From: an uncultured Opitutia bacterium
GTDB taxonomy: Bacteria > Verrucomicrobiota > Verrucomicrobiia > Opitutales > Opitutaceae
Length of the DNA: 64,000 nucleotides
Assembly: GCA_903859715.1 (NCBI GenBank)
Contig: CAIONS010000065.1
Coordinates: 1-64,000, forward strand
Direction of reading: 5' to 3'
Made by a program: the position numbers and the translations under genes. Each line of letters begins with the position of its first letter. Positions within the stretch are counted from its first letter, which is position 1. Below, piece after piece: positions 4,390-29,010 of this stretch. The notes under the pieces were generated by a model that saw only the letters and a program-made list of their open reading frames with translations, made no database searches and was not told where the DNA came from.

Positions 4390-4420
4390 TTAACCACGAA
4401 GGGCGCGAAGGCCACGAAGA
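4390..4420. repeat. Word-repeat run, CACGAAGG family
   Basis: Three copies of a CACGAAGG/GCGAAGG word at 9-base spacing, beginning TTAACCACGAAGG, just upstream of mdh. No clear complementary arm is seen here, so this is a single-armed or decayed member of the family found in two-armed form at 21661, 25552 and 29901. Confidence 0.6.
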
Positions 4421-19621: not shown

Positions 19622-21649
19622 ATGAATCCGACTGTCACTCATTCCGTGGATGGCGAGGGCGTCGGCTGGATCGTGTTCGATGATCCGGCGGCCCGCGCCA
19701 ATGTGTTCACCCCGGCGGTTCACGCCGACCTCCGGGCGGCCCTCGCCGCGCTCGCGGCCTTGCCGGTCAAGGCGGTGGTCGTGCTGAGCGCGAAGGAGCG
19801 CATCTTCATCGCGGGTGCCGACCTCAAGTGGCTGTCGCAGCTGCCCGATGCCGCGGCGGTGGCCGCCGCTTCCCGCGATGGCCAGGCCTCGTTCAACGCG
19901 GTGGCGGATTTCAAGGTCCCGGTCGTGTGCGCCATCCATGGGGCATGTGCCGGAGGCGGGTTTGAACTCGCGCTGGCGTGTCACTGGCGCCTGGCGAGTG
20001 CGGCGAAGGAAACGGTGATCGGGTTGCCGGAGACGAGCATCGGCACGATTCCCGGCTGGGGCGGAACGGTCCGGCTGCCGCGGCTGATCGGAGCGAAGGC
20101 GGCGCTCGGGCATATTTTGAAGGCGGCACTGCTGCCCGCCGCCGAGGCGCAGACCGCGGGATTGGTGGACGAAGTGGTGCCGGCCACTGAACTCAAGGCG
20201 CGGGCGAAGGCAGCCGCGCTGCGGCTGGCGGCGGACGGTCTGCCCGCCCGAACGGCTCCGTCTGCAGCGGACGCGGCGGTTTTTGCCGGAGCGCGAGCCG
20301 ACGTGGCGAAGAAGACGTGGGGTCGCGAGCCGGCGCCCCTGGCAGCCATCGCGCTGATCGAGCGGACGGCAGGCTTGGCGCTGGACGCGGCGCTGGCCGA
20401 GGAAGCCCGGATGTTCGGTGAAGTGACGGCGGGAGAAATCTGCAAAAACCTCATCCATGTTTTCTTCCTCAAGGACGCAGTGAAGAAGCTCACGGTCGAT
20501 GCCTGGTTTCCGAAACCAGCCGCGCCCGCGGCGCCGGCGCCTTTCAAAAAAATCGGCGTCGTTGGGGCCGGGGTGATGGGCTCGGGCATCGCGCAATGGT
20601 GTGCGGCGCGCGGACATGATGTCGTGTTGCGCGATGTGAAGCCGGAATTCGTTGAGCGCGGGCTCGCGGTGATCCGCGGGGTGTTCGACGAGTCGGTGGC
20701 ACGGAAGAAACTGACGCCGGAGGCCGCGGCGGCGGGACTGGCCCGCGTGAGGACGACCACGGCGTGGGACGGATTCGATGAATGCGATCTCGTGATCGAG
20801 GCCATCGTTGAGAACGTGGCGGCGAAGCAGCAGCTCTTCGCGGAACTGGCGAAGGTCGTGCGGCCCGACTGCGTGCTCGCTTCAAACACGTCGGCGCTGC
20901 CGATCGAGGAACTGACGGCGCCCGTGACTCATCCCGACCGCACGATCGGAATCCATTTCTTCAACCCGGTGAGCCGGATGGCGCTGATGGAGCTCGTACT
21001 GAGCCCGCACACGACGCGCGACACAGCGGAGCGCACGCTCGCGTTCGCGAAGGCACTCGGGAAAACGCCGGTCATCTGCCGGTCATCGCCGGGTTTCCTC
21101 GTCACGCGGGTACTTTTTTTCTATCTCAACGAGGCCTGCCGCCTCTGGGAACAAGGTGTGCCGACGGATGTGCTCGATGGCGCGCTGCGCGACTGGGGCT
21201 GGCCGATGGGTCCGGCGCGCCTGATCGACGAAGTGGGCGTCGACGTGACGGATTTCATCTTCGGGGAGATGGCGCATTATTATCCGGACCGCTTCAAGAG
21301 CTCGGCGGTGTGCCGCCGGATGCTCGATGCCGGAATGAAAGGCCGGAAGAACGGCGCGGGCACGGGCTTCTACACGTATGCCGGAGGCAAGGAGGCGCTG
21401 AACCCGGCGATGACAGCGTTTGTATCGGACGCGAAGTCAGAGTTTACCCCGACGGCGAAGTCGGGGCTCAGCGCCGAGGCCATCGCCGGGCGCCTGAACC
21501 GCGTGATGATCGACGAAACGAAGCGGGTGCTCGACGAAGGCGTGCTGAAGACAGCCGACGATGCCGACTTCGCGCTGCTCATGGGCACGGGCTTCCCGGC
21601 CTTCCGCGGCGGTCTGATGCGGTATGCACGGCGGGTCGGAGTGATTTGA
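19622..21649 (+). CDS. FadB/FadJ-type enoyl-CoA hydratase / 3-hydroxyacyl-CoA dehydrogenase
   Basis: A 675-residue bifunctional beta-oxidation enzyme. Residues 1-190 are a crotonase domain: CoA-binding FIAGADLKWL and both catalytic glutamates (E115 in CAGGGFELALA, E137 in IGLPETSIGTIPG). Residues 310-650 are the dehydrogenase: NAD loop GVVGAGVMGSGIAQWCAARG, catalytic histidine in GIHFFNPVSRMALMELV, and the two C-terminal HCDH lobes. It should form an alpha2-beta2 complex with a thiolase (FadA), which is not in the window. Slightly shorter than E. coli FadB (729). Ordinary catalytic residues suggest full activity. Confidence 0.93.
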   Translation: MNPTVTHSVDGEGVGWIVFDDPAARANVFTPAVHADLRAALAALAALPVKAVVVLSAKERIFIAGADLKWLSQLPDAAAVAAASRDGQASFNAVADFKVPVVCAIHGACAGGGFELALACHWRLASAAKETVIGLPETSIGTIPGWGGTVRLPRLIGAKAALGHILKAALLPAAEAQTAGLVDEVVPATELKARAKAAALRLAADGLPARTAPSAADAAVFAGARADVAKKTWGREPAPLAAIALIERTAGLALDAALAEEARMFGEVTAGEICKNLIHVFFLKDAVKKLTVDAWFPKPAAPAAPAPFKKIGVVGAGVMGSGIAQWCAARGHDVVLRDVKPEFVERGLAVIRGVFDESVARKKLTPEAAAAGLARVRTTTAWDGFDECDLVIEAIVENVAAKQQLFAELAKVVRPDCVLASNTSALPIEELTAPVTHPDRTIGIHFFNPVSRMALMELVLSPHTTRDTAERTLAFAKALGKTPVICRSSPGFLVTRVLFFYLNEACRLWEQGVPTDVLDGALRDWGWPMGPARLIDEVGVDVTDFIFGEMAHYYPDRFKSSAVCRRMLDAGMKGRKNGAGTGFYTYAGGKEALNPAMTAFVSDAKSEFTPTAKSGLSAEAIAGRLNRVMIDETKRVLDEGVLKTADDADFALLMGTGFPAFRGGLMRYARRVGVI

Positions 21650-21660
21650 TCGAGGCTTGG

Positions 21661-21808
21661 TTTAACCACGAAGATCACGAAGGGCACGAAGTTCGATCCC
21701 ATGAGTTGATCGCGGAAACGCGGAGGAGCGGAAGCGCGGAAACAATCGTTGGATCGACGATTCAATCTGGGTCTGAAGGATCGGCCTTCGCGATCTCCGT
21801 GATGAAAC
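21661..21808. repeat. Nested inverted elements: CACGAAGG outer, GCGGAAAC inner
   Basis: Outer left arm TTTAACCACGAAGATCACGAA has its partner at CCTTCGCGATCTCCGTGATG near the right end. Between them is a GCGGAAACGCGGAGGAGCGG run (21710-21741), the GCGGAAGC family. The element separates the convergent FadB-type and ADOP permease genes. Confidence 0.75.
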
Positions 21809-21809
21809 C

Positions 21810-24293
21810 TCATTCCGCCCTCAGCGCCACGATGGGGTCGACCTTGGTCGCGCGGCGGGCGGGGACCCAGCAGGCGAGGAGGGCGATGGCGGAGAGGAGC
21901 ACGATGATGGCGAAGTACGAAACCGGGTCGTAGGGGCTGACGTTGAACAGCAGCGCGCTGATCAACCGGGTGCTGACGAGCGCACCGGCGGTGCCAAACA
22001 GCAATCCGATGCCGATGATGCGCGAGCCGCTGCCGAGGACGAGACGCAGCACATCCCGCGGCAGCGCACCCAGCGCCATGCGGATGCCGATCTCATGGGT
22101 GCGCTGATTCACCGAGTACGCCATCACGCCATAGATGCCGATGGCGGCGAGGACGAGGGCGATGACGGAGAACAGGGTGAAGAGGATCATGTTGAAGCGC
22201 TGCTGCGTCCACCACCACTCGAGCGTGTTGATCAGCGGGTAAAGCGTGTCGAACCGGACATCCTTATCCAAGGAGTGGAAGACATCACGGATGGCGGGCA
22301 CCATGCCCGGCGCCGGCCCCTTGGTGCGGACCACGAGGGTCATGAGTTGCTCGGGCATTTGATCGAACGCCTCGTAGACCTGCGGCCCGGTCTCGCTTTG
22401 GGGCCCACGCGGTTTCACGTCCCCGACGACGCCGATGATTTCCGACCAGATCTCGGGCGCCGGCTTGCTCGGATCGCTGTCCACCACGCGGATGCGCTGG
22501 CCCAGCGGATCCTTGCCGGCAAAGTGCCGCCGCACCATTTCCCGGTTGACGATCACGACGCGGGCCGTGGCGACGGTGTCGTGGGAATTGAAAACGCGGC
22601 CGCGGATGAGCGGGACGCTCATCACCTTGAAGTAATCGGGCGTCACGGCGTAGCGGTCCGTCGTGAGTCCGGGCTCGGACGGCGACGTGGACGCGTGCCC
22701 GCCCTCGAGGACGAATTCCCGCTGCTGCACCCGGCCGCGGTTGCCGGCCGAGGGGTAACCGAGGGTGATGCACGCGGAATCTATGTCCGGCAGACCCTGC
22801 ACGCGTTCGAGCATGATGTGGGTAAAAGTCAGGATTTTTTCAGGCGTGTTGTAACGCTGCTGCGAGTTGAGCGTGAACTGGGCGCCGGACACATTTTCCG
22901 GCTTTAATCCCTGATCGAAGGTCTGCATCGCGTGGAGGCTGCGGACCAGCAGACCGGTGCTCACCAGGAGCATGAGCGCAATGGAGATCTCGAGGATGAC
23001 CAGGAAATTGCGGACGCGCAGCCGCTCGCGGCCGCCGGAGGAGTTGTGACTGCTCTCTTTGATCGCCCCGATGAGGTCGCCGCGCGTGGCCTGCAGGGCG
23101 GGCACCAGACCGAAGCCCAAGCCGGCCACCACCATGACGCCGCACATCACGAGGAGAACGTTGCCGTCCACGGCGATGCGGTCGGCGTGAGGCATGAAGT
23201 GCTTCGCGAGCACGATCAAGGGTCCCATCGAGGCATAGGCCAGCATGATGCCAAGCGCGCCGCCGAAGACCGCGATCAGCAGGCTTTCGCAGAGGAACTG
23301 GCGGATGATGCGGCCGCGGCTGGCACCGAGGGCGGCGCGGACCGCGATTTCCTTCTGGCGGGAGTTCGCGCGGGCGAGCAGGAGGCTGGCGACATTGACG
23401 CAGGCAATCAGCAGCAGAAAACCCACGGCGCCGAGCAAGGCATACAGCTGGGGCTTGAGATCGGAGGTCCAGTCGTCGATTTCGCGGATCACCTTGATGC
23501 CGCGGTCCTTTTCGGTGTCGGGATGCTCCAGGGCCGCGCGCCGGGCGATCAGCTGCATCTCCATCTGAGCCTGTTCGAAGGTGGCGCCGGGCTTGAGCCG
23601 GCCCTCCATCCACAGGATGCGCGTCTTGAAATCCTGACGTTCCGACGCTTCGACTCCGGGCAGATAGACATAACTGCCAGTGCGCTCCGTATCCCAAACG
23701 ACGCCCACGATCGTGTAGGTCTGGTCGTCGAGCCGGAGCGTCTGCCCGATCATATCATCGCGGCCGCCGAACTGCTCCTTCCACAGGGCGTGGCTCAGGA
23801 TAACCACCTGATTCTTGCCCGCTCGCATTTCCTCCGGCAGAAACAGCCGGCCCTTCTCGGCCGAGAAGCGATAGACGGAAAAGAAATTGGCGGTGCAGCT
23901 GATGGCGAACAAATCCATGTAACGGTCGCCCTGCGCCAGCTTCACACCGCGAAAAGACACGGCGGCCAGTTCGTCGAAGACCGTGGCTTGGTGCAGCCAT
24001 TCGTTATAGATGCCCGGGGAGATCGGCATCTCCAGGTTCTTCGGCAGCTGATTTCCGGAAAGGTAAACCAGTCGGTCGGGTTCCTCGTAGTTGAGCGGGT
24101 GGAGGACGACCTTGTTGACGACGCTGAAGAGGGCGGTGCAGGCGCCGATGCCGAGGGCGATCGTGAGGATGGAGATCGTGGCGAAGCCGGGAGCCTTGAT
24201 GAGCTGGCGCAGGCCGTAGCGCACGTCCTGGCCGAATTGTCCGAGCCAAGGCAGTCCGCGCAGCGACCGCGAGGGGTGGGCGGGCTGGTTCAT
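21810..24293 (-). CDS. ADOP-type ABC transporter permease (MacB/FtsX fold)
   Basis: An 827-residue duplicated permease of the ADOP class common in Acidobacteria and Verrucomicrobia. The first transmembrane segment (about 40-65) is followed by a large MacB-like periplasmic domain; three segments lie around 280-410, with the FtsX motif REIAV-type [17 protein letters not shown]; a second periplasmic domain follows; and the last FtsX block contains [20 protein letters not shown] and ends [17 protein letters not shown]. No ATPase gene is adjacent. Probable role is mechanotransmission or export of an unknown substrate. It is under the neighbouring PadR gene, together with a decayed paralogue. Confidence 0.9.
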
Positions 24294-24356: not shown

Positions 24357-24530
24357 GGGGCACCATGAAAGACACGAAATGCGGAGGGACGGAATTCGAT
24401 CTTCAGGTGGCGAAATCTGATCCCCGGCCCGATGGATTGTTCCGTGATTCCGCTTTTCCACGATCAAGCGGACCGGCCTTCGCGCTCTTCGCGTCCTTGG
24501 TCGCCTTTGGCGACCTTCGTGGTGAACCCT
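24357..24530. repeat. Decayed CACGAAGG inverted element between ADOP genes
   Basis: CACCATGAAAGACACGAAATG at the left corresponds to GGCGACCTTCGTGGTGAACC at the right, with runs of CTTCGCG/TTGG words in the right half. The left arm is poorly preserved. It lies between the intact permease and the truncated one. Confidence 0.55.
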
Positions 24531-25099
24531 CACTCCGTCCGCAGCGCTATCATCGGGTCGACCGTGGTGGCGCGGCGGGCGGGGAGCCAGCAGGCGAGGA
24601 AGGCGATGAAACTGAGAAACAGCGGGACGATCACGTAGGCCAGTGGATCATGCGTGCTGATCTCGAAGAGCAGGGAGCCGAGAAAGTGCGTCGCCCCGAG
24701 GGACGCGATCAGGCCGATCACGACGCCAAGTCCGACCATCCGGCCCGTCTGGGAAAATACCAGGCGCAGGATGTCGCCTGCTTGGGCGCCGAGCGCCATG
24801 CGGATGCCGATCTCCTGGGTGCGTTGAGTAACGGCATAGGCCACCACGCCGTAAATCCCCAGCGCGCTGAGCAGCAGCGCCACGCCGGCAAAGGTCGCAA
24901 AGACGAAGAGCGCAAAGCGCTGCGGGGCGATGGTCTCGTTGAGGAACCCCTTGAGATCGATCTTGGTGACGAGCGAGAGCGGCATGTCGGGGTCCACCAA
25001 GTCCAGCGCCTGCCGCAGCGAGTGCTCGAGACCGGCGAGCGGGCCCTGCACGCGCACGAGCAGGCTGGGAGTCGCAAACGGAGCCTGAGCGAAAGGCAC
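24530..25099 (-). pseudogene. C-terminal remnant of a second ADOP permease
   Basis: A 189-residue open frame that matches, residue for residue along its length, only the last quarter of an ADOP permease: it begins inside the second periplasmic domain (PSLLVRVQGPLAGLEHS) and includes [20 protein letters not shown] and the ending PARRATTVDPMIALRTE. The intact neighbour has the same blocks near residues 640-827. The N-terminal 600 or so residues are missing, and only 42 bases separate it from padR, so a large deletion is the simplest explanation. The remaining frame has three or four membrane segments and might still be translated. Confidence 0.85.
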
Positions 25100-25141
25100 A
25101 TAGATTCCTCAAGGGTTTCATGCGCTTGCTACGGGTCGCTC

Positions 25142-25474
25142 TTACGTGACTTTCAGGACCAGGTTAATCGCGGCGGAGACCTGTTCCCAATTCGAGGTCT
25201 CCACGGCGAGCTGCTTCCGGCCGGCGGGTGTCAGGGTATAGAAGCGGGCCTTGCGGTTGTTGTCTGAGACGCCCCATTCCGCCTTGATCCAGCCCTGCTC
25301 CTCCAGCCGGTAGAGGGCGGGGTAGAGAGAGCCTTGCTCCACCTGCAGGACATCCTGCGACATTTGCCGGATCTGCACCGAGATGCCGAAGCCGTGGACC
25401 GGCCCGCGCTGCAGTGATTTCAGGACCAGCAGGTCCAAGGTGCCTTGCAACAAATCATTTTTTTCTTTGGCCAT
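25142..25474 (-). CDS. PadR-family transcriptional regulator
   Basis: A 110-residue PadR-type winged-helix repressor, short (PadR-s1) form. Visible signatures are LLQGTLDLLVLKSLQRGPVHG, the recognition part VEQGSLYPALYRLEEQGWI, and ARFYTLTPAGRKQL. PadR genes of this kind usually precede ADOP permease genes, as here. It probably represses its own operon through the TCTAG-type palindromes directly upstream (25482-25525). The inducer is unknown. Confidence 0.95.
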   Translation of the reverse strand: MAKEKNDLLQGTLDLLVLKSLQRGPVHGFGISVQIRQMSQDVLQVEQGSLYPALYRLEEQGWIKAEWGVSDNNRKARFYTLTPAGRKQLAVETSNWEQVSAAINLVLKVT

Positions 25475-25899: not shown

Positions 25900-28800
25900 A
25901 TGCCCACTGTCGCGTCCCGCCTGTCCTCTCAACTGAAACGCCGGCTGCTGACGACCATCCTGGAGAGTCGTCAGGGCGATCTGCGGGAGGAAAACCTCAA
26001 CCGCCAGGGCAAGGGGCACTTTCATGTGTCCGGCCGCGGCCACGAGGCCCTCGCGGCCGTGAGCGTGCAGTTGCAGCCCGACGATTACATCGTGCCCTAC
26101 TACCGCGACCGCGGCCTTGTGCTGGGCCGTGGCGTGACCACGCGGCAGCTCGCGCTCGACTACATGGCCAAGCGCGAGTCGTCGTCGCGCGGCCGGCAGA
26201 TGCCGTCGCACTACAGCTATCGCGAACAGAACATCTGGAGCGTGCCGACGCCGACCGCCGCGCAACTGCTCCCGGCCTGCGGCATGGCGTGGGGCATGCA
26301 GCTCGACGGAAAGAAGAGCCTGGTCGTCACGACCGTGGGCGACGCCGCGACACGGCAGGGTGATTTCTACGAGGCGGTGTGCTTCGCGCAGGAGCGCAAG
26401 CTGCCGATGCTGTTCATCGTCGAGGACAACGGCTTTGGCATCAGCACGCCGACGGCCCGGACGACACCGCGGGCGCTCGCCGTGCTGAACGAGGAGCAAT
26501 GGCGCGCGGTGGACGGCTGGGATGTCGAGGCGGTGTATGCCGCCGCCGAGACCGCCGCGGCGGAAATCCGCGCCGGCAAGGGCCCGGTGCTGCTCTGGGC
26601 CCGGATGGAGCGGCTCTCAAGCCACACGAGTTCGGACGACCAGGCGATTTACCGGAGCAAGGACGAACTGGCCACGCTGGCGGAACGCGACCCGCTGATG
26701 ACGCTGAAGGCACAGCTGATCGCCGAGGGCGAGCTGACCGAGGCGGAGTTTGATCAACTGGAAAAGGACCTGAAGGAACGCATCCGGCTCGATTACGCCG
26801 AGGCGGAAAAAGCAGAGAATCCGGTGGCCAACGAACTGGAGCCCAACGTTTCGTCGCAACCCGCCGCGCTCGACGAGCAGGTGCTCAAGCCCGGCAGCTA
26901 CCGGATGGGCGATGTGATCAACCTCACGCTGCGCGCCGGGCTCGATGCCGACCCGGGCCGGCTGATCTTCGGCGAGGACGTCGAGGATCCCAAGGGCGGG
27001 GTGTTCCGGCTCACGCAGAAACTCTCCACGGATTTTCCGGAGCAGGTTTTCAACTCACCGCTGGCGGAGAGCACGATTCTTGGCGTGGCGTGCGGGCTGG
27101 CGAGCTACGGCAAGCGGCCGGTGTTCGAGATGCAGTTCATCGATTTCATTTATCCAGGCTGGAACCAGCTCGTGACGAACCTCGCGACGCTGCGCTGGCG
27201 CACCTACGGCCGCTGGTCGTGTCCGGTGGTCATCTATGCGCCGTACGGTGCGTACCTGCCGGGTGGATCGCTCTGGCATTCGCAGGCCAACGAGGCGGCC
27301 ATCGCGCATTTTCCGGGGCTCAACGTCGTCATTCCCAGCACGCCCGAAGATGCGGCGGGGTTGTTGTGGACGGCGATGCACACGGAGGACCCGGTGATTT
27401 TCCTCGCGCCGAAACATCTGCTCTGGGCCGAGCGCCGGATCGCCGAGCCCGCGATGGCAGTGCCGATCGGGCATGCGCGCCTCCGGCAGGAAGGCAACGA
27501 CGTCACACTGCTCGCGTGGGGCAACACGATGGAAAAAGCCCTGGAGGCGGTTGCCGCGATCGGGGACGGGGTCAGCATCGAGCTGATCGACCTGCGTTCG
27601 ATCGTGCCGTGGGACCACGAGATGATCGAGGAGTCGGTGCGCAAGACCGGCCGGCTCGTCGTGGTGCAGGAGGACACGGAGAACTGCTCCGTCGGCCAGA
27701 TGATCATTTCCCACATGGCGGGCCGGCCCGACGTCTGGAGCCGGATGGTGGCGCCGCCGGTGCTCGTTTCGAAGGGCAACGTCATGATCGGCTACAACCC
27801 GATCTACGAATACGCCGCGCTGCCCGACACCCCGCGCATCATCGATGCGCTGCGCCGCGTGGTGGCGACCTCGGTGGAGCGCGGGAGCTATGCCGCATCG
27901 TCCGTGGCTCCATTCGCGCCCGCGCCGCTGGTGGCATCCGTTTCTGCTTCCGACCCGGCGCATGCACCGGTAAACAGCGTCGTGCCTGGAACCAGCGACA
28001 TCATTGTGAAAGTCCCCATCATGGGCGAAGGCCTGCGCTCGGCGCGGGTGGTCGCGCTGCACAAGCAGGCCGGCGACAAGGTCAGTCACGACGACGTGCT
28101 GTGCGAAGTCGAGACGGACAAGGCGGTCTACCCGATCGAGGCGTCGTTCAGCGGCACGTTCAAGACGTGGAAGATCAAGGCCGATGACACGGTGGAGATC
28201 GGGCAGGAGATCGCGGTCGTCGCCGGCGATGCGGCAAGTGTCGCTACGATGGCGGCGCCGGTCGTGCCGCCGGCCCATCCGAGCCTGCAGCAGCTTCAAG
28301 GCAACCGGAGCGAATCAACCGGCGGTCAGCCAGCGTCCGCGCCCGGGCTGGCGGGTGAGCGCCGCGATCCGGCGCTGCCGGCGGCGATCACGCGCCGGCT
28401 CGACAGCGTGGTCCCTGCCAACATGGAGATGGATGTCCGCTATGGCGCACTGCGCGCGGCGCGCGAGCAGGCGAAAAAGGATCTCGGCAAGGCGGCACCC
28501 TCGCCGTCGGCGATGATGGGTTGGTGCGTGGTCCGTGCGATGGAGAAGCACGCGGGTTTCCGGCGGATTGTCACCAAGGACGGCACGATCCTGGAACAGA
28601 AGGACTTTGAGCTGGGCATCGCCGTGGCATTGGAAGGCGACCGGCTCGGCACGGCGGTCGTCCGCCGGAGCAACCGGCTCGGCTGGGCGGAATTTGTGAC
28701 CGCCTACACCGCGGCGGTGGATTCCACGCGCACGGGAAAAATCGAGGACGTGCAGGCGCCGCTGAACCTGACGAGCCTGGGGGCCTTCGGCATTGAAAAG

Positions 28801-29010
28801 GCGTGGCCGATCGTGGTGCCGCCAGCGATGAGCACCCTGTTTGTCGGCACGGCGCACGAGCGCATGATCAACGACGGCGGGGTGGTTTATCCCGTGGAAG
28901 TCGTGACGCTCTCGATCACCTTCGACCACCGGGTGGTCAACGGCGTGGGTGCGGCGGCGTTCCTGCAGGAACTGAAGGCGCAGTTCGAGGGGTTCAAGCT
29001 GCCGGGTTGA
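25900..29010 (+). CDS. Fused 2-oxoacid dehydrogenase: E1-alpha, E1-beta, lipoyl, E2
   Basis: A 1036-residue single chain holding the catalytic parts of a branched-chain/pyruvate-type dehydrogenase complex. Residues 1-300: E1-alpha with the thiamine-diphosphate motif GDAATRQGDF...VEDNGFGIST. Residues 330-660: E1-beta (GEDVEDPKGGVFRLT, FNSPLAESTILG, GSLWHSQANEAAIAHFPG). Residues 700-775: lipoyl domain with target lysine K741 in CEVETDKAVYP. Residues 820-1036: E2 acyltransferase with the active-site segment FDHRVVNGVGAA. The canonical DHRxxDG motif has Asn1014 for Asp. No peripheral-subunit-binding domain is evident in the 775-820 linker, which is Ala/Pro/Gly-rich. No E3 gene is nearby. Substrate uncertain (pyruvate, branched-chain or acetoin-type). 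Confidence 0.9.
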   Translation: MPTVASRLSSQLKRRLLTTILESRQGDLREENLNRQGKGHFHVSGRGHEALAAVSVQLQPDDYIVPYYRDRGLVLGRGVTTRQLALDYMAKRESSSRGRQMPSHYSYREQNIWSVPTPTAAQLLPACGMAWGMQLDGKKSLVVTTVGDAATRQGDFYEAVCFAQERKLPMLFIVEDNGFGISTPTARTTPRALAVLNEEQWRAVDGWDVEAVYAAAETAAAEIRAGKGPVLLWARMERLSSHTSSDDQAIYRSKDELATLAERDPLMTLKAQLIAEGELTEAEFDQLEKDLKERIRLDYAEAEKAENPVANELEPNVSSQPAALDEQVLKPGSYRMGDVINLTLRAGLDADPGRLIFGEDVEDPKGGVFRLTQKLSTDFPEQVFNSPLAESTILGVACGLASYGKRPVFEMQFIDFIYPGWNQLVTNLATLRWRTYGRWSCPVVIYAPYGAYLPGGSLWHSQANEAAIAHFPGLNVVIPSTPEDAAGLLWTAMHTEDPVIFLAPKHLLWAERRIAEPAMAVPIGHARLRQEGNDVTLLAWGNTMEKALEAVAAIGDGVSIELIDLRSIVPWDHEMIEESVRKTGRLVVVQEDTENCSVGQMIISHMAGRPDVWSRMVAPPVLVSKGNVMIGYNPIYEYAALPDTPRIIDALRRVVATSVERGSYAASSVAPFAPAPLVASVSASDPAHAPVNSVVPGTSDIIVKVPIMGEGLRSARVVALHKQAGDKVSHDDVLCEVETDKAVYPIEASFSGTFKTWKIKADDTVEIGQEIAVVAGDAASVATMAAPVVPPAHPSLQQLQGNRSESTGGQPASAPGLAGERRDPALPAAITRRLDSVVPANMEMDVRYGALRAAREQAKKDLGKAAPSPSAMMGWCVVRAMEKHAGFRRIVTKDGTILEQKDFELGIAVALEGDRLGTAVVRRSNRLGWAEFVTAYTAAVDSTRTGKIEDVQAPLNLTSLGAFGIEKAWPIVVPPAMSTLFVGTAHERMINDGGVVYPVEVVTLSITFDHRVVNGVGAAAFLQELKAQFEGFKLPG

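Follow-up and report, generated by a model that had tools for sequence, protein, structure and literature searches.

How can a 2-oxoacid dehydrogenase operate when its E1 and E2 components are encoded as a single polypeptide? The question is raised by a 64,000-nucleotide stretch from an uncultured Opitutia bacterium of the Opitutaceae, phylum Verrucomicrobiota (contig CAIONS010000065.1, positions 1 to 64,000; hereafter the window), in which one open reading frame (ORF) encodes E1alpha, E1beta, lipoyl and E2 domains. The 2-oxoacid dehydrogenases of textbooks reach megadalton size and consist of distinct E1, E2 and E3 components assembled on an E2 cage. What is new here is the combination of E1alpha, E1beta, lipoyl and E2 domains in one chain, the parts being known. 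The fusion protein is probably an active, conserved single-chain 2-oxoacid dehydrogenase (E1 plus E2) of a distinct subfamily, its substrates most likely being the branched-chain 2-oxoacids derived from valine, leucine and isoleucine.

A single-chain E1-E2 protein conserved in Verrucomicrobiota

The ORF begins with ATG behind a Shine-Dalgarno (SD)-like GGAG and runs for 1036 codons with zero internal stops. Its features are as follows.

25900..29010, + strand: single ORF, E1alpha-E1beta-lipoyl-E2 fusion, 1036 aa, orthologues known
25978..26823, + strand: E1alpha domain, residues 27-308 (Pfam E1_dh, 1.6e-54), with thiamine diphosphate (ThDP, TPP) motif GDAATRQGDFYEA...EDNGFGIS and loop SSHTSSDDQAIYRS, residues invariant in 22 orthologues
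26905..27423, + strand: E1beta pyrimidine-binding domain, residues 336-508 (Pfam Transket_pyr, 7.6e-30), catalytic E390 and H460 invariant
27469..27768, + strand: E1beta C-terminal domain, residues 524-623 (Pfam Transketolase_C, 1.6e-24)
27871..27993, + strand: flexible linker 1, residues 658-698, AlphaFold pLDDT <50, variable across the fusion family
28006..28218, + strand: lipoyl domain, residues 703-773 (Pfam Biotin_lipoyl, 5.5e-16), lipoyl lysine K741 (codon 28120-28122) invariant
28231..28347, + strand: flexible linker 2, residues 778-816, the expected place of a peripheral-subunit-binding domain (PSBD), no E3_binding match, pLDDT <50
28393..28989, + strand: E2 acyltransferase catalytic domain, residues 832-1030 (Pfam 2-oxoacid_dh, 1.6e-28), in its own clade of the E2 tree
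28924..28944, + strand: E2 active-site motif DHRVVNG (H1010, N1014), Asn in all family members whose motif is readable

The single-chain architecture put forward in the original prediction was borne out by Pfam domains in that order within one uninterrupted ORF, and its coordinates, domain limits, K741 and DHRVVNG motif were all correct. The E1 part is of the alpha/beta type, with E1_dh, Transket_pyr and Transketolase_C domains, a ThDP motif and the E1beta Glu and His; the E2 part combines a lipoyl domain carrying a lipoylable Lys (K741, in the context ETDKA) with a CAT-like domain carrying the active-site His (H1010). Pfam E3_binding, the PSBD model, gave no match in the fusion protein even at E<=1, in agreement with the earlier remark that none is visible.

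Since the usual arrangement is one of separate genes, and Pirellulaceae kin do have a separate E2 gene, it was considered that a fault in sequencing or assembly had fused neighbouring genes, or that subunits are made from internal starts. A search for the same domain order elsewhere, as originally proposed, recovered it in one frame from 11 of the 12 genomes in the genus, 20 of the 57 relatives and 27 of the 387 Verrucomicrobiota genomes (identities about 46-94%, the window itself excluded), as well as from about 25 named metagenome-assembled genome contigs of many studies, so that artificial joining was rejected. The single ORF thus recurs in dozens of independently assembled genomes, in several on complete contigs. 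The SD-like internal starts sit inside domains (residues 170, 204, 499, 580 and 616), and no SD-preceded start was present at any domain border of the ORF, for which reason separate subunits were also rejected. An artefact of either kind is therefore extremely improbable. In the 22-sequence orthologue alignment from which residue conservation was read, the ThDP motif (G147, D148 ... N177), the E1alpha loop (H242/D246/D247/R252), E1beta E390 and H460, lipoyl K741 and E2 S959, H1010 and N1014 were invariant. Invariance at all active sites is an argument for selection on every one of them and, together with the recurring order, excludes a chance joining; the fusion is real, conserved and widely inherited in Verrucomicrobiota.

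Asparagine in the E2 motif

The Asn replacing the Asp of DHRxxDG had been singled out as unusual. The Asp is conserved in most E2s of the E2 comparison, which would fit an E2 domain reduced to a structural remnant by the Asn, with only E1 and the lipoyl arm at work. The Asp is nevertheless usual rather than defining for E2s. Wherever the motif is readable, fusion-family members have Asn (FDH[RK]xxNG, once IDHRWVNG), and another E2 of the same genome, on contig C22, reads ADHRVVNG. Within the PDB set, the E2 was matched best by the Azotobacter vinelandii dihydrolipoyl transacetylase 1eaa, with the sequence DHRVING, the 1dpc chain having DHRVIDG. Asn614 is named as a residue of A. vinelandii E2p in a passage citing Hendle et al. 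1995 (PMC8421416) and is termed aspartate-equivalent elsewhere (PMC9681731). This E2p (1EAA series) shares with the fusion the Asn at the Asp position, although it belongs to an ordinary multi-subunit pyruvate dehydrogenase complex. In addition, Escherichia coli E2o Asp379Ala kept 9.5% of complex activity (PMC5986005). Against the invariance of N1014, H1010 and S959, the native Asn of A. vinelandii E2p and the activity left in the E. coli mutant, an inactive remnant is very unlikely. Since no family member with a readable motif departs from Asn, and the E2p that serves as the classic crystal structure has it naturally, its reading as a lesion was rejected; the substitution is an ordinary one, neither lesion nor novelty.

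A distinct subfamily with kin in Streptomyces

In an E1 tree (E1alpha plus E1beta, 33 rows), the Verrucomicrobiota fusions formed one clade (99/98) with an E1alpha-beta fusion from a Pirellulaceae and one from a Fimbriimonadaceae bin and with four such Streptomyces proteins, standing apart from Bacillus/Listeria pyruvate dehydrogenase (PDH), proteobacterial bkdAB and the three other E1s of the Opitutia genome. An independently built E2-domain tree gave the same grouping of Verrucomicrobiota fusions, Pirellulaceae and streptogramin-type Streptomyces proteins (100/100), every member having Asn. The fusion thus belongs to a distinct subfamily. The unfused form of this subfamily is seen in a Pirellulaceae bin (L062:3772-7325), where an E1alpha-beta fusion is followed by a separate lipoyl-E2 gene with the Asn motif, then by phenylalanine hydroxylase and short-chain dehydrogenase/reductase genes.

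The Streptomyces kin (L064, L065, L108), the nearest from outside, have an E1alpha-beta protein 45-47% identical to the fusion and an E2-like domain of the same clade with Asn (FDHTVLNG). Unlike in the fusion, the lipoyl and E2-like domains stand on the next protein, a megasynthase that begins with them and continues with an acyl carrier protein (ACP) domain and a ketosynthase, so that the acceptor is probably ACP; a PSBD-like stretch is visible in it by eye, without a Pfam match. Around these genes (L064, L108) are pabB, chorismate mutase, prephenate dehydrogenase, AMP-binding, aminotransferase and ornithine cyclodeaminase genes, and the L065 locus has an ABC-F gene. Judged by known pristinamycin genes, all three loci look like streptogramin clusters. 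The starter of streptogramin A (pristinamycin II) is isobutyryl (PMC6963833), which, given the Streptomyces kinship, supports a branched-chain substrate for the E1. The subfamily also connects primary metabolism in Verrucomicrobiota with the loading machinery of streptogramin-type antibiotics.

Gene context and substrate

Upstream of the fusion in the window, with ABC-permease and PadR-like genes between, lies a gene of acyl-CoA metabolism.

19622..21649, + strand: FadJ/FadB-like enoyl-CoA hydratase/3-hydroxyacyl-CoA dehydrogenase (ECH-HCDH)

An enoyl-CoA hydratase or ECH-HCDH gene stands directly upstream of orthologues at L035, L038, L042, L047, L051, L055, L057 and L059, as a simple enoyl-CoA hydratase in the last three. 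A methylcrotonyl-CoA-carboxylase-type carboxyltransferase gene comes directly after the fusion at L057 and is near it at L048 and L050; this carboxyltransferase subtype was present in 7 of the 57 relatives, and each of these 7 also had the fusion (p 3e-4, kinship uncorrected). Neighbours met at single loci are acyl-CoA dehydrogenase (L048), acetoacetate-CoA ligase (L055), phenylalanine hydroxylase with thiolase (L062) and 4-hydroxyphenylpyruvate dioxygenase (L061). The enoyl-CoA hydratase, carboxylase-type and acyl-CoA dehydrogenase neighbours point to branched-chain keto acids, the likely substrate from gene neighbours and subfamily kin together. Among solved structures, the nearest E1beta by sequence as well as by fold belongs to Thermus 1um9, whose title is branched-chain 2-oxo acid dehydrogenase E1. 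With the branched-chain enzymes E1b (alpha2beta2) and E2b of Thermus (1um9), Pseudomonas and human, the fusion shares the E1alpha, E1beta, lipoyl and E2 domains and the catalytic residues; their system consists of three polypeptides, with a PSBD on E2b and a cage of 24 E2b chains, whereas the fusion is one chain with no PSBD detected.

Several points weigh against a branched-chain substrate. The E1 tree keeps the family apart from annotated proteobacterial bkdAB, its deeper position being weakly supported (81/84). The link to branched-chain amino-acid catabolism, present in orthologous loci, is weaker in the Opitutia genome, where neither a close methylcrotonyl-CoA carboxylase nor an HMG-CoA lyase match was found; full leucine breakdown there is unsupported on these grounds, and the product may serve other ends, for instance as a starter for branched fatty acids taken up by one of the two FabH-like enzymes. 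Finally, the top-scoring NCBIfam models are those of PDH E1alpha and E1beta, as would be expected of a pyruvate or acetoin dehydrogenase providing a second source of acetyl-CoA. Scores were nonetheless far below, at about half of, the curated cut-offs (218 vs 411, 164 vs 394 and 196 vs 321 bits for TIGR03181/TIGR03182 and NF006667), a PDH-type E1/E2 set with PSBD is encoded separately on C56 and a further set on C22, and the gene context is unlike that of PDH or acetoin use, which leaves such a function doubtful.

NapB/NapD, QncN/QncL and SclQ2-4 represent another use of the same domain set. Here ThDP would take a C2 unit from a ketose phosphate, in the manner of transketolase, and the lipoyl arm and E2-like domain would deliver glycolyl to ACP. 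The domain content and order of the fusion equal those of QncN (ThDP domain) plus QncL (pyrimidine, transketolase C, lipoyl and acyltransferase domains in one chain) as described in PMC6335953, and the nearest Streptomyces kin also pass an acyl group toward ACP. In the QncN/QncL and SclQ2-4 systems, however, E1alpha is separate, and no partner ACP, non-ribosomal peptide synthetase or polyketide synthase gene stood beside the fusion in the window or among the classified orthologue neighbours, which are those of acyl-CoA and amino-acid catabolism. A lipoyl-dependent transketolase-like enzyme of the QncN/QncL or SclQ type is accordingly unlikely.

E1:E2 ratio, oligomer and proposed mechanism

The original prediction had envisaged, for a cage built from such chains, a fixed 1:1 E1:E2 ratio unlike known complexes. 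The ratio has a precedent in the 'two-in-one' 2-oxoglutarate dehydrogenase OdhA/KGD of actinobacteria, in which E2o and E1o are on one chain, forming an 800-kDa homohexamer with dimeric E1 and trimeric E2 (PMC10415282). Like the fusion, OdhA/KGD joins the E1 and E2 catalytic domains in one chain at a fixed 1:1 ratio and takes E3 in trans. The order differs, with E2o preceding an E1o of the single-chain, homodimeric OGDH type, whereas the fusion has an alpha-beta-type E1 first and E2 last; OdhA moreover has no lipoyl domain of its own and relies on the lipoyl groups of E2p. A cage is not implied either: the C-terminus of the fusion is of an FxLP type and lacks the hydrophobic tail (NPALLLL, DPARLVLGL) seen in ordinary E2s of this genome, the PDH-type one and that on C51, which may be taken as a weak argument against cage assembly. 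By analogy with OdhA, the combination of an E1 that dimerises with an E2 that forms trimers suggests that the chains assemble into a small homo-oligomer, such as a hexamer, rather than a 24- or 60-mer cage.

The fusion had also been offered as the reason why a PSBD is unnecessary. This need not follow, as the Pirellulaceae relative with separate E1alpha-beta and E2 genes has no detected PSBD either. E3_binding likewise gave no Pfam match at L019, L022, L023 and L058, and OdhA too lacks a PSBD.

An AlphaFold2 model of the whole chain (22 sequences) was of moderate confidence (mean pLDDT 69, pTM 0.58) and showed E1, lipoyl and E2 as distinct domains, residues 658-698 and 778-816 between them being disordered linkers; its best Foldseek match was the E1beta of the Thermus branched-chain 2-oxo acid dehydrogenase. 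In the mechanism that we propose, the (alpha-beta)2 active sites of E1 would arise from the pairing of two fusion chains; there ThDP would decarboxylate the keto acid and the acyl group would pass to lipoyl-K741 of the built-in arm. On its two flexible linkers, the arm would carry the acyl group to an E2 active site at the E2 trimer interface, where H1010, helped by N1014 and S959, would pass it to CoA, and the dihydrolipoyl group would be reoxidised by an E3 acting in trans.

A fusion with no detectable PSBD represents a second, differently built way, after OdhA/KGD, of joining E1 and E2; unlike OdhA, it brings its own swinging arm and would allow active-site coupling to be studied in a small defined particle. 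As both surprising features, the Asn and the fixed ratio, have precedents, the remaining interest lies in the self-contained E1-arm-E2 chain, the tie of its subfamily to antibiotic starter loading and the related proteins that join lipoyl domains to 3-ketoacyl-ACP synthase III (KAS III).

E3 candidates and related proteins in Opitutales

The expectation that E3 must come from elsewhere was right: the fusion contains none, and three Pyr_redox_dim proteins of the genome are E3 candidates. In this genome a PSBD is carried by the PDH-type E2 of C56, by the E2 of C51, whose gene has an E3-type neighbour, and by a free-standing lipoyl-PSBD protein of 152 aa that has no E2 domain (C3:30283-30738; L116:1180-1638). 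The last is absent from several fusion-bearing genomes and is therefore not obligatory. The separate E1alpha/E1beta/E2 set on C22 (L086) lies, by eye, amid phytanoyl-CoA-dioxygenase-like and rhamnulose-aldolase-like genes, and its E2 combines a DHRVVNG motif with no detected PSBD.

In other Opitutaceae, the lipoyl-PSBD orthologue is fused to KAS III (FabH), as judged by long open frames seen in 14 of the 57 relatives; three of these were read and Pfam confirmed two.

L131:2759-4441 (- strand), L132:3013-4650 (- strand), L133:3011-4843 (- strand), L134 and L135: lipoyl-PSBD and KAS III loci

The KAS III gene adjoins the lipoyl-PSBD gene in G014 and G017, and none of the 14 lipoyl-PSBD-KAS III genomes carries the E1-lipoyl-E2 fusion. 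A further genome of the same order (G055, L025:1441-4797) encodes E1alpha-E1beta-lipoyl-KAS III in one 1118-aa chain by Pfam, joining E1 and swinging arm to the fatty-acid starter enzyme. Searches of the open-licence literature turned up nothing relevant on a single-chain E1alpha-E1beta-lipoyl-E2 enzyme or on lipoyl-KAS III fusions. The domain composition of the lipoyl-PSBD-KAS III proteins suggests direct transfer from acyl-lipoyl to KAS III for branched starters. Contig C51 also carries an orphan 678-aa E1alpha-beta fusion (L085:2838-4871, - strand) with no adjacent lipoyl or E2 gene, similar frames being present in most Opitutaceae searched; it may be the E1 that works with the lipoyl-PSBD(-KAS III) proteins.

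Because an ACP heading a polyketide synthase is the recipient in the Streptomyces kin and other Opitutales fuse E1alpha-beta-lipoyl or lipoyl-PSBD to KAS III, the subfamily E2 might hand its acyl group directly to a carrier protein or ketosynthase and not to CoA, as part of a broader pathway from lipoyl to ACP/KAS in which branched lipids or polyketides are begun with no free acyl-CoA. This appears rather improbable, and for the fusion we infer transfer to CoA.

Surroundings of the fusion gene in the window

Between the FadJ-like gene and the fusion gene lies the C-terminal remnant of an ABC permease (24530-25121, - strand, about 190 aa), near a complete permease (21810-24293) and a PadR-like regulator (25142-25474); it looks like a decayed second copy. 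Short intergenic CACGAAGnn repeats occur at 21667-21691 and 4395-4419 (4 matches vs 0.05 expected).

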